Part shown: positions 25,601-34,600 of the stretch, piece after piece | Numbering within the stretch: position 1 is the first letter of the stretch | Layout of the letters: every line of letters begins with the position of its first letter | Source of the DNA: Glandiceps talaboti | Lineage: Eukaryota > Hemichordata > Enteropneusta > Spengelidae | Reading direction: 5' to 3' | Assembly: GCF_964340395.1 (NCBI RefSeq) | Contig: NC_135552.1 | Location: 25,620,181-25,684,180 of the forward strand | DNA: 64,000 nt | Notes under the pieces: generated by a model | What the model was told of the DNA's origin: nothing | Databases searched by the model: none | Seen by the model: the letters and a program-made list of their open reading frames with translations, nothing else | Program-made: the position numbers and the translations under genes

Positions 25601-28600
25601 GATTCAAAATGAGGTATACACAAGAAGCACATGATAATACAACAGCCCAAGTCCAGTGAGGAATAAACCAGAAGCACATGATAATACAACAGCCCAAGTC
25701 CAGTGAGGAATACACCAGAAGCACATGATAATACAACAGCCCAAGTCCAGTGAGGAATACACAGGAAGCACATAATAACACACAGCCCAAGTCCAGTGAG
25801 GAATACACAAGACGCACATGATAACACACAGCCCAAGTCCAGTGAGGAATACACACAGCCCAAGTCCAGTGAGGAATACACAAGAAGCACATGATAACAC
25901 ACAGCCCAAGTCCAGTGAGGAATACACACAGCCCAAGTCCAGTGAGGAATACACAAGAAGCACATGATAACACAACTGCCCAAGTCCAGTGAGGAATACA
26001 CAAGAAGCACATGATAACACACAGCCCAAGTCCAGTGAGGAACTAGTCAAGGCTGTATGCAACAACATGAATGACAAGATGCAAAGACACAATAATATAG
26101 TAATATTAACGAAGTTAATAGTAACATTAAAGAAGAGATCAAATCAAATGATGAGAACGACATCAGAAACATAATACAAATCACCAGTGCATCAAGTGCT
26201 GAAAATGTCAGCTTCACAACAACAAGACTTGGGGAGAAGATAACAAAAGAAGATAGTGGAAACACTGCAATGTGACCCCTCCTAGTTAAATTTAGAAAAC
26301 AGGATAAAGTGAACCTCATGGAAAACTTAGAAGATTAAAGGGTAGCAATTACAAAATAAGTGTAAAAGATGATATGTCAATAAAAGACAGACAGGGATCT
26401 GAGATCGAAAGCGCATATAAGAAGAATCGGGCAAACTTGGACCCTCATAAGTGTTCTACGCGGCGAACCATGGAACAGAAATGGTGAGGATAAAAAAGAA
26501 GGAAGAAATAGAATCAACCAATGCAGATGTTCTCACTTCAGCCAGTCATCGAAAGCCAAAGTTGACTCCTCTGAAATCAAACCAGATATTATTGCTCTTT
26601 CTAAGGTTAGACCGAAGACGCGTGTAATGGATGTTAATTTAGCTACATATGGTATTCATGGTTATGAATGTCAGCAAATAAATATCTCTGGGAACGTTGC
26701 CAGAAGTATGATCATCTTTGTATATAAGGACCTAGACTATTCGGTCATGGATATCAACGAAATACTGATATTAGAAGTGAAACCTACGAATGGAAATACT
26801 TTATGGTTTTGTTTAATTTATCAAAGTCCAACTTCTACCACAACAAACAACAGCAACATCAATCATCTGATTACTCAACTTGCAGACAAGCGTTATTCTC
26901 ATCTACTAATTACAGGAGACTTGAACTACAGAAACATTGATTGGCAAATTGGCAAATGCACTTTAAGTGAAAACAGTCAAGATTTCAAGTTTCTAGAGGC
27001 AGTTCGTGATAGTTTTCTATTCCAACATGTCACTTCACCAACCAGGGGCAGAGGATCTGACAAGCCCGCCTTGATTGATCTTGTTCTTTCAACTGATGAG
27101 TGTGTTATTAATTATGACGACACAGCATGCACACAATTTTCGCTGATGTTGAAACTTGGAAAAATAATTTTGTTCGCACACACATTTTATGTCCCGCGTC
27201 TCACTTATATTAACAAAATCACAGTCAAATTTACATAACCAGGTCGTCGCTCGAACGATTTGTTGCGACAAATATTAGATTTCACAAATTTCCTATAATG
27301 CACTTGCTGATAAAATAAGATGGGTAATGAAGTAACGCTAAGATTTGCTTTATCAAAGACCTCGAAACATATTCTATTTAGCTACAATACTGGACTAGAA
27401 TAGAGTAAGAAAGAGTTTGATCATTCTCAACGTATATTTTGCACATTTATTGAATAACAGAATTGAATTATTTCAATCAGGTATTGACGATTGTACTACC
27501 AATAATGGTGGATGTGCCCACACTTGTACGAATACCTTTGAATCATTCATATGTTCTTGTAACATTGGATATACACTGGCTGCAGACAACCGAGCATGTA
27601 ATGGTAAGTTTAATTCAATGATCTAACGCACGTATATATATATATATATATATATATATATATATATATATATATATATATATATATATATATATATATA
27701 TATATATATACTAAAATACACAAATGTCAAGAAAGGTCATCAGAATATTTACACAACCGACAATAAAACCTATCAATCATGATTATGCATCATAAGGTGC
27801 AGAAAAAACCGTATAAATATAGAATCCATGTCATATGTTATTCGACGATTATCATCATTGCAAAAAACATTCAGAAATAGTGACAGCCTTTATTTACTTC
27901 TGAAGTCAATTTCTTTTGGATCTTTTTCTGATAGTCTTAACTGTTTGTAGTAAATTCTTGATGACGCTCGTCTCGAATCTTAACGCTACATTGAGGACAT
28001 GGTAACTAGATAGCTGATTGCTGTAGTAATCAGACATATTTAAAACCGGTCGATGTATTTGTCTCGTATGTTACTAAAAGATGATTGTTTTCGCAAGAGA
28101 AATTATTATGGTACACTCCTATTGTTCGCGTTCAGTTTTCATATTGTACACTACTCTTGAAATAGGTAAAAGTTTTTTTTTTTAACTTTCCTGTTTTTAT
28201 TATTGTAAATTATGTTTGTTTACTCATCAGATGTTAATGAGTGTGCAACAAACAATGGGGGCTGCGCCCACACTTGTACGAATAATATGGGATCTTTTAC
28301 ATGTTCTTGTGACACTGGATATACACTGGCTACAGACAACCGAGTATGTAATGGTAAGTTTTAACAATCAAACGCATATATATTGTTTTTCATATTTATA
28401 TATTGCCTTTGAATTACTAATTTGTAAAAGGGACTTGTCTGACTTGTTGACATGTGGCCGAGCGGTTACCTCGTACGCCTCTTACCTCTGCAGCCTGGGT
28501 TCAAACCCGCCTGGTATCGGCTTGGTTTGATTAAATTTACCACGCTGTAAGTAAGAAGAGTGTCGTTCAGTTTGACTCTACCAAACAACGCAGGTTTTCC

Positions 28601-31600: not shown

Positions 31601-34600
31601 TTATATATTACCTTTGAATCTTTAATTTGTAAAGGGATTTGTCTGACTTGTTGACATGTTGAGAAAATAAATTTATGATTTGCGTTTGAAACCTAGATAT
31701 TGTCATGATATTTCATTTGTCGAATTTTCATATTCTACACTACTCTTGGAATAGGTAAAAGGTTCTTTTTTAACTTTCCTGTTTGTATTATTGTAAATTA
31801 TGTTTGTTTACTCATCAGATGTTAATGAGTGTGCAACAAACAATGGGGGCTGCGCCCACACTTGTACGAATAATATGGGATCTTTTACATGTTCTTGTGA
31901 CACTGGATATACACTGGCTGCAGACAACCGAGTATGTAATGGTAAGTTAACCATGTATCGTAATTATGATATCAAATAGGTTTTGAAAATAAATGTCTCT
32001 AAATGGATTTGAAATTGAAAAGTGAACTCTAAAATGTCTTCACACAAGGTTTTGTCATTAAACGTACCCCAGAAAGTCAATTGACCATGAAAGTATTCTC
32101 CCGGGATTCACATAATATTGGTGTCTGAGAGAAGATAATCGCATCTATAGTACACTAGTAATGAAAAAACAAGGTACCTTCCTAACATGACAGGTAAAAG
32201 TAATTACTATAAATGGCACACATTTATCATGAACGTAGCTCACCAATTTGATATTTGAATTTGAAAATATACATTACTGAGATTTTTACTTTTTGAAATT
32301 GTACAACACTTGCTTCTATCTTCATAATTATAATTTAAGACTCAGACTTTGTATTTTCTTAAAAAGCAAATATGTTGAGAAGCGAAGATATTTTTAATAT
32401 GTAGTTAAAGACATTTCAGTTTTCTACACAGGCAATTTGCTTTTATTAGGAAATAGCTAAGTCATTCAGTTACAAGGTGTGTCTCATACACGAAACTTCC
32501 ATATTTATCAATCGCCATACGTGAAATGGATATGTTTACTCTTTCTTGTACAATTAGTTTTAACAGACAGTATAATTAATCCGATGCTTAAATCTTTCAT
32601 CAGATGTGACAACCACTGCATCACCATTTGTAGTTGAAATAAGGTAAATTTATTTCAAAATTATTATATCACCGACTGACCCCATACATTCAAACAGAAC
32701 TCGAGTTTGCATTGTGTATATTCTATGATAGAAGCGACAGTTTTACTGTGTGTGGGGTATTTTCAAAAATATTTTAAACTGAGCTCTGATGACAGATTCC
32801 ACATTGATATCATCTGGTGAACTATAAAATACATGCTCCAAATGACTGGCACTACCAAAATATCACATGGGAATGTTTCCTGTGAAGATTTGCTTTCATC
32901 CTCTTCAAACATATTTTGCATATTGTAAAGGTAACTTTTCCTTCAATATTTTCAGATGTGTTATGAACTGTGGAAATATGGTCACTGCCTCACAGGTCAT
33001 GTCATTTGAACTACTCCACTCAGTGCACAATATCGATGGACGAAATATCGCATATGAATGGAGCCTACACGAATTTGGACTTAATGAACAGTATTACGTA
33101 ATTAACAATTTCGGAGACTTCACATCAAATGGTGAATATTGAATTCTAAAATCCCTTATATTAGGCTTCACATGATAGTTGTAAATGTGATCACATGACT
33201 TTGTATATCATTTCATTGACTCTGTCGTCACGTTTAACGTCGAGCGTAGGATTGGTGCATTATTCACATGCCACTATCTTACTTATAGACACGAGTAATT
33301 CTAAAAGCACAACACAGGTTCAGTGTCAAATTCAAAACATATTGCAATTAGTGTTCTTGACCATAAACCACGTCATGGTGCCATCTTAATCGCACAGAAT
33401 AAGTATATATTGTATATATTAGGTGAAGCTTCCAAATATTGATAAGAAGTGTTGTTGTATGTCCAGAATACAAAACGTAACATTCATAACATTTCTAATT
33501 GTAGTGATTTCCATCTTTACCTAGGAGTGGATCAATCGTATGTAAATATCAAGGAGAATACTCTCAAGAAAGGGACCGGCTACAAACTCACAGGATCAGT
33601 CGTAATCGGGGGTCTAGGAGATGGCATTTCTGTGTATTCGTTTTCGACTGCAGTACCCCCTTCTGGTGGAAAATGTGGCGTCACGCCAACCGAAGGTACT
33701 TTATCAGAACGAAACACTTGCCTAAGTCTGTACTATTATGTGCAACGGAAACGTTTTCTGCAGAGGTTTTAGTTTATATAATGACTTACTGTCTCGTATT
33801 ATCGTACACCCTAAACACTGAAATGTATTGAATGACCTGTGGAGAAAACGTACTCATGTAGCTGTATATAATATGGTGCAATACATCCTAACAAATTGAT
33901 TTTTAGATTCGCACCCTAGAACCAGCGCCCCGAATGCAATCGCTGATTTCAACCTGTTACTGTACACTTGAATTGATATTTTTAAACACTTCACATGCCA
34001 TATTTGGACAGAGTGTTCAGTGCTGTGATCAGGAATTTTAGTAAATACGGGAACATATTTTTCCCAACACAGCACTGGTGTAACAAAAGTGGGTCAACCT
34101 CTAATGTTAACGTTACTTCTCCATCAGTGTTACGTTTCCACCAGTGTTACTCTCTAATCTCCGCACTTAGCTGGCAGATTATGTAACTATATTAGAATCA
34201 CTCTCATCTCTCCACTTGTACACGGGATCATCTTGGGAATTAGCTAGCAGACATCACATAGTGTTCATGGTTAATTTGGTCCAGTCTAGGAGTGGCCAGG
34301 GAGCAGATGGACGCTCCTTGCCTTGCCTTCAGCTCGCTTGCCTTCAAAGTGAATCCATACTTTATTTATTCCAATTTTAATTTTTTGTAAACATAAATTA
34401 CACAATACTCAAATGATTGCATGATAAAATCATCAACACCATAAATTAATAAACCAAAAGGTGTTGTTGCCTTAATTTAATGCAAACATTACTGACAAGT
34501 ATGAAAAGTAGTTGAACAATGCCATCACGCCATTGTTCTTCCAGCTACCTGTAATCTGGTAATTAGTTTTTATTGGGCACTGCTGATCTTGTAATGACGT

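Follow-up and report, generated by a model that had tools for sequence, protein, structure and literature searches.

The hemichordate Glandiceps talaboti carries a tandem duplication of a block of three EGF exons, located in what looks from its plus-strand exons like a PKD1-family (polycystin-1-like) receptor gene, and the two copies of the block pass abruptly from diverged to near-identical sequence. The duplication lies in C5:25620181-25684180, a stretch of 64,000 bases with 0 N, which is the window that was analysed; the assembly comprises 47 contigs and 590,416,875 bases. The two copies, referred to here as blocks A and B, are mosaic, and the most likely cause is an allelic crossover or gene conversion that took place after the duplication.

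Divergence between the two copies

Block A and block B were aligned pairwise over their whole length. Of the 487 bases aligned in the left parts (27711–28197 in block A), 27 are substituted, and there are four internal indels, a divergence of ~4–5.5%, whereas the right parts (28198–29797 in block A) differ by one substitution in 1,600 bases (0.06%) and by no indel. Outside the exons, 0 of the 1,231 sites in the right part differ. The best two-rate split of the alignment falls after position 28197, with twice the log-likelihood difference (2dlnL) reaching 71.6, against a maximum of 19.0 over 2,000 permutations. When substitutions ≤3 bases apart were merged, 18 events in 487 bases still stood against one in 1,600 (Fisher, 5e-11). 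A block duplication of uniform age was rejected on the basis of this step, which lies far beyond chance.

The initial annotation had described the duplication as very recent, with matching introns and a matching short interspersed element (SINE) in both copies. This description holds for the right part, in which the SINE-like element and the introns between modules are identical, but not for the intron 5′ of M2 and M5, the second and fifth of the seven EGF modules, where the left-hand substitutions and indels are found. Only the right 1,600 bp can be regarded as recently alike because of the far higher divergence on the left. The initial interpretation is thus partly supported, and is better put as a tandem duplication that later recombined and of which the right part was recently homogenised. 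The polarity of the left-hand substitutions was assessed with the M3 and M4 units as the outgroup, by which five of the 27 were polarisable. The derived state is in A at two of these sites and in B at three (n = 5; M3 is gapped at one). Because both copies carry derived changes, the left parts look like separate lineages rather than errors in one copy.

Anatomy of the block and its exons

Block A spans 27711–29797 and block B ~30275–32386, with a period of 2,589 bp (Table 1). Both had been placed to within a few bases by the initial annotation, and its account of the modules is likewise confirmed. There are seven EGF exons at 27481–31941, each of 123 nt (41 codons) and phase 1-1, and joined together they give 861 nt with no stop. 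M2 and M5 differ at 0 of 123 positions, as do M4 and M7, while the single difference between M3 and M6 is silent (GTT to GTC, Val in both). All seven exons have cag/gtaagt borders, and six of them are shaped cag/AT...AATG/gtaagt; M1, which lies outside the duplicated block, begins cag/GT with the same length and phase. The block alignment and the exon borders together support a duplication of three EGF exons that is neutral with respect to the reading frame. Symmetrical phase 1-1 EGF exons are the textbook form associated with exon shuffling, and the exons described here, each flanked by phase 1 introns, do not differ from it.

Six of the seven modules (M2–M7) match the calcium-binding EGF pattern of PROSITE PS01187, and M1 fails at the first residue. 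Two of the seven modules, M1 and M4, were scanned with Pfam, in which EGF_CA was matched by M4 (E 2.6e-9) and, below the cut-off, by M1 (E 6.5e-4). A PDB search with the M4 reading frame returned mainly EGF modules of LRP4, LRP6, and the LDL receptor.

Within the block, the M3 and M4 units have a repeat distance of 368 bp (28709 to 29077, and 28768 to 29136), and the M2-to-M3 spacing is 632 bp owing to the inserted SINE-like element. This element is found at the same place in both blocks and is absent at the M3/M4 unit boundary (29041–29100). The M2 and M4 units are 96.9% alike over 225 bp, and the M2 and M3 units 89.7% over 320 bp. The sequence between the two blocks, X, is matched neither upstream of block A nor downstream of block B. 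Apart from a simple repeat at E 0.007, a search of the window with X (29798–30272) gave nothing but short, chance-level hits with an E-value of 0.3, by which a transposon or filler with a relative inside the window was rejected as its source. A curated RNA or tRNA gene in the block was also rejected, since Rfam matched nothing at its gathering score and ARAGORN predicted no gene in the window.

Table 1. Features of the EGF block duplication and of the putative receptor gene around it (window coordinates).
Feature	Position	Strand	Basis or remark
Extracellular exons upstream of the EGF row, probably same gene	19005..22971	+	Pfam
Retrotransposon remnant between MAM and EGF exons	24704-27238		Endonuclease-reverse transcriptase match PF14529, E 8.9e-10
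EGF exon M1 (GIDDC...), outside duplicated block	27481..27603	+	123 nt, phase 1-1
(TA)39 microsatellite immediately 5′ of block A	27633..27710	+	
Block A, left part (M1-M2 intron), diverged from block B	27711..28197	+	Pairwise alignment
Block A, right part, differing from block B at 1 of 1,600 sites	28198..29797	+	Pairwise alignment
EGF exon M2, identical to M5	28231..28353	+	
SINE-like insertion, M2-M3 intron, approximate limits	28456..28700	+	Named SINE by eye
EGF exon M3, silently different from M6 at one site (28851 T/C)	28847..28969	+	
EGF exon M4, identical to M7	29230..29352	+	
Intervening sequence X, (CA)n-rich tract at its end	29798..30274	+	Window search (29798-30272)
Block B, left part, diverged partner of 27711-28197	~30275..30786	+	Pairwise alignment
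Block B, right part, near-identical to 28198-29797	30787..32386	+	Pairwise alignment
EGF exon M5	30820..30942	+	
SINE-like insertion, second copy, identical	31045..31289 (approximate)	+	
EGF exon M6	31436..31558	+	
EGF exon M7	31819..31941	+	
REJ domain exons	33446..35239	+	Pfam
GPS motif and PLAT domain halves	41119..42975	+	Pfam
Polycystin domain and polycystin cation channel	47073..50050	+	Pfam, PDB search

Gene context and related loci

Twenty reading frames, picked by eye from the lists of open reading frames (ORFs), were scanned for Pfam domains. The order on the plus strand is LDLa-like, MAM, seven EGF, REJ, GPS, PLAT, polycystin domain, and polycystin channel. The LDLa-like exon is a weak match below the cut-off (E 0.015), while the two parts of the MAM domain have E-values of 3.2e-8 and 2.1e-16. 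REJ was found above the cut-off in one ORF (E 5.8e-9) and below it in the next (E 0.0014), GPS at E 6.7e-6, and the PLAT halves at E 0.0047 (below the cut-off) and 1.7e-6. The polycystin domain and the polycystin cation channel gave E-values of 6.1e-20 and 8.9e-20, respectively, and a PDB search with the polycystin-domain exon gave PKD1L3 (7d7e_A; E 9.1e-16) as its best match. The exons thus include the REJ, GPS/PLAT, and polycystin/channel domains of the PKD1/REJ family, and the receptor named in the initial annotation looks like a PKD1-family protein, although we infer the joining of its MAM, EGF, and REJ exons. The order and strand of the MAM, EGF, REJ, GPS, PLAT, and channel exons on one contig fit a single gene.

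A search of the genome (590 Mb, 47 contigs) gave 15 matches, all 15 candidates being scored. Seven are the window's own exons, and the eight others, none of them above 87% identity, comprise four on contig C23, three on C12, and one on C20. No second copy of the seven-EGF array was found in this search, the counts of which are lower bounds. Three stretches of 6–9 kb at C23:14.78-14.88 Mb (L009, L010, and L011) each contain two EGF exons that agree with those of the window in length and phase. They are 86–94% alike in DNA over aligned pieces >300 bp, and all three have REJ-like sequence downstream of the EGF exons (E 1.2e-4 to 1.3e-4), so that the order of EGF followed by REJ recurs in them. 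These stretches are probably tandem paralogous genes. The seven EGF exons of the window, compared with at least two in these relatives, fit an expansion in the window gene; a loss in the relatives, or further exons beyond the fetched stretches, would also be possible.

Several other features were observed in the window. A second and larger tandem array lies upstream at 1976–13240, with ~3.7-kb units in two to three copies that are 91–96% alike. It is mosaic, with eight differences over ~4238–6238 and ~8% over 3488–4238, and the high values near 4800 and at 8350–8850 in comparison with the third copy fall on AT-rich short repeats. Five tandem copies of 75 bp with 97% matches are found at 13896–14269, and a 47-bp tandem repeat occupies 25610–26042 inside the retrotransposon remnant. 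A G-rich, minisatellite-like array is located at 52268–53283, with a strong GC skew of 0.40 over 52001–54000. Downstream of the channel exons, a CUB domain exon on the plus strand (61854–62105; E 4.4e-13) probably belongs to another gene.

Origin of the mosaic

We consider it probable that three EGF exons of the extracellular part of a PKD1-family receptor were duplicated in tandem in the germline and that recombination, whether crossover or conversion, followed. One EGF exon with its flanking intron (the 368-bp unit) would have been amplified to three, after which a SINE-like element would have inserted between M2 and M3, and the block, broken only in phase-1 introns, would have been duplicated in tandem. 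In a fourth step, either the two copies would have been homogenised over their right 1,600 bp or one of them would have had its left 487 bp replaced. This order of amplification, insertion, block duplication, and step-making event is the likely one. The element likely arrived after the amplification, but its insertion could also predate the M3-to-M4 copying, or the element could have reached the second block by conversion.

In the slightly preferred form of the fourth step, the duplicated unit would be X-L-M2-M3-M4-R, by which filler would be unnecessary and R/X would be a simple tandem joint. Near 28197, an ordinary crossover between alleles, or else a conversion tract of some length, would then have brought the left side of a diverged haplotype to the first copy, the donor haplotype having (TA)n where the other has X. 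A single event of this kind would account at once for the absence of X upstream of block A and for the divergence of the left part. At the protein level, expression of the duplicated exons would place three more predicted calcium-binding EGF modules in a row between MAM and REJ. Modules can be gained or lost in frame in any number, and a longer or shorter spacer would be the expected effect.

Certain observations weigh against this history. The EGF exons are linked to the MAM and REJ exons by order and strand on one contig, and the retrotransposon-derived stretch (24.7–27.2 kb) separates the MAM from the EGF exons. In Pfam, FXa_inhibition beats EGF_CA for both scanned modules (M4, E 1.5e-13; M1, E 2.5e-12). 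The lower-bound nature of the genome search is seen in the C23 stretches, for which four of the six EGF exons were listed. Finally, copying from M3 to M4 after the insertion of the element would also leave the M3/M4 boundary empty.

It is quite possible that the block duplication is old, as the ~4% divergence on the left would suggest, and that a later conversion tract of ≥1.6 kb homogenised M2-to-R and M5-to-R. This would amount to concerted evolution of the array, possibly aided by selection for alike modules, and it shares the first three steps with the history favoured above; our confidence in that history covers both forms of the last step, and the two assessments therefore overlap and should not be added. 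Such a tract explains the divergence step as well as a crossover does. The left divergence is also comparable to that between modules within one block, by which the block and the amplification could be of roughly the same age, and the array at 1988–13240 in the same window is likewise a mosaic of near-identical and ~8% diverged stretches. However, X then needs a further event (filler, an insertion at a later time, or its loss from copy A), and the tract must happen to reach the end of the homology. Gene conversion is described as apparently uncommon among tandem genes in a report on coral (PMC10236652), and if the same applies here, the crossover would be favoured.

The near-identity of the exons and of the 1.6 kb around them would agree with a block duplication that is wholly very recent, in which the left-hand difference is a local burst of mutation. 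The 18 separate events in 487 bp compared with one in 1,600 bp, and the derived changes in both copies among the five polarised sites, make this scarcely credible. An assembly artefact, in which two alleles of a single three-EGF block were joined end to end, is very unlikely. A diverged left part beside identical sequence is what a haplotype switch would be expected to leave, such divergence is possible for alleles of a heterozygous marine animal, and the haplotype-merging step is described as a possible source of such switches in the coral report (PMC10236652). Nevertheless, X, which follows block A, finds no match in the flank downstream of block B or in the one upstream of block A, so that a false duplication would need an overlap-free join. 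The window is free of N, alleles that are ~4% diverged should show more than one difference in 1,600 bp unless the join coincides exactly with the step, and both copies have private derived changes on the left. The 15 matches of the genome search, itself a lower-bound search, included no spare allelic or third copy. With no second array copy found there, and with junctions unlike those of a haplotype join, we regard the duplication of the EGF block as very probably real.

The length polymorphism of EGF modules proposed in the initial annotation is plausible given the frame-neutral exons, and is a fair prediction. We are more doubtful of the stronger suggestion that the EGF count segregates (e.g. 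as alleles with four, seven, or more modules) in an array now turning over by unequal exchange and conversion, with the spacer that separates the ligand-binding part from the GPS/channel part acting as a heritable length dial. If the number of modules does vary among individuals, the animal would offer a polycystin-1-type receptor in a naturally graded set of lengths; the N-terminus of such a receptor is reported to activate the channel complex in PC-1/PC-2 (PMC7728438). Even without polymorphism, the sharp divergence step cleanly records that recombination followed the exon duplication.

Relation to other repeat-bearing receptors

The REJ, GPS, PLAT, polycystin, and channel domains occur here in the same order as in the PKD1/REJ family (SpREJ1-10). 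The gene in the window differs in having seven EGF modules and a MAM domain ahead of REJ, whereas the description of the 10 SpREJ proteins of the sea urchin names one EGF domain, in SpREJ1 (PMC1934368). We met no row of EGF modules in a polycystin in the literature consulted, our searches being too narrow to call such a case unreported.

CR1 and LPA offer parallels for the duplication itself. The long homologous repeats (LHRs) of CR1 are built of short consensus repeats. They give rise to ectodomain length alleles by unequal crossing-over of the repeat unit, with four size alleles of 3 to 6 LHRs being described (PMC4842007). CR1 is a different receptor, and its size alleles are reported, while those of the gene described here are only predicted. 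In LPA, the kringle IV type 2 (KIV-2) units are likewise tandem, highly alike intron and exon units of one extracellular domain type, and their number is reported to vary from 1 to ~40 units of 5.6 kb per allele (PMC11462820). In comparison, the present case involves two copies of a ~2.1-kb three-EGF block in a membrane receptor, for which copy-number variation is only predicted. The near-identical tandem units and symmetrical exon phase of the LPA KIV-2 and CR1 type are found here, with the left 487 bp of the unit diverged. The block duplication is in itself an ordinary exon duplication, and a length polymorphism arising from it would work in the same way as the LPA KIV-2 and CR1 repeats.

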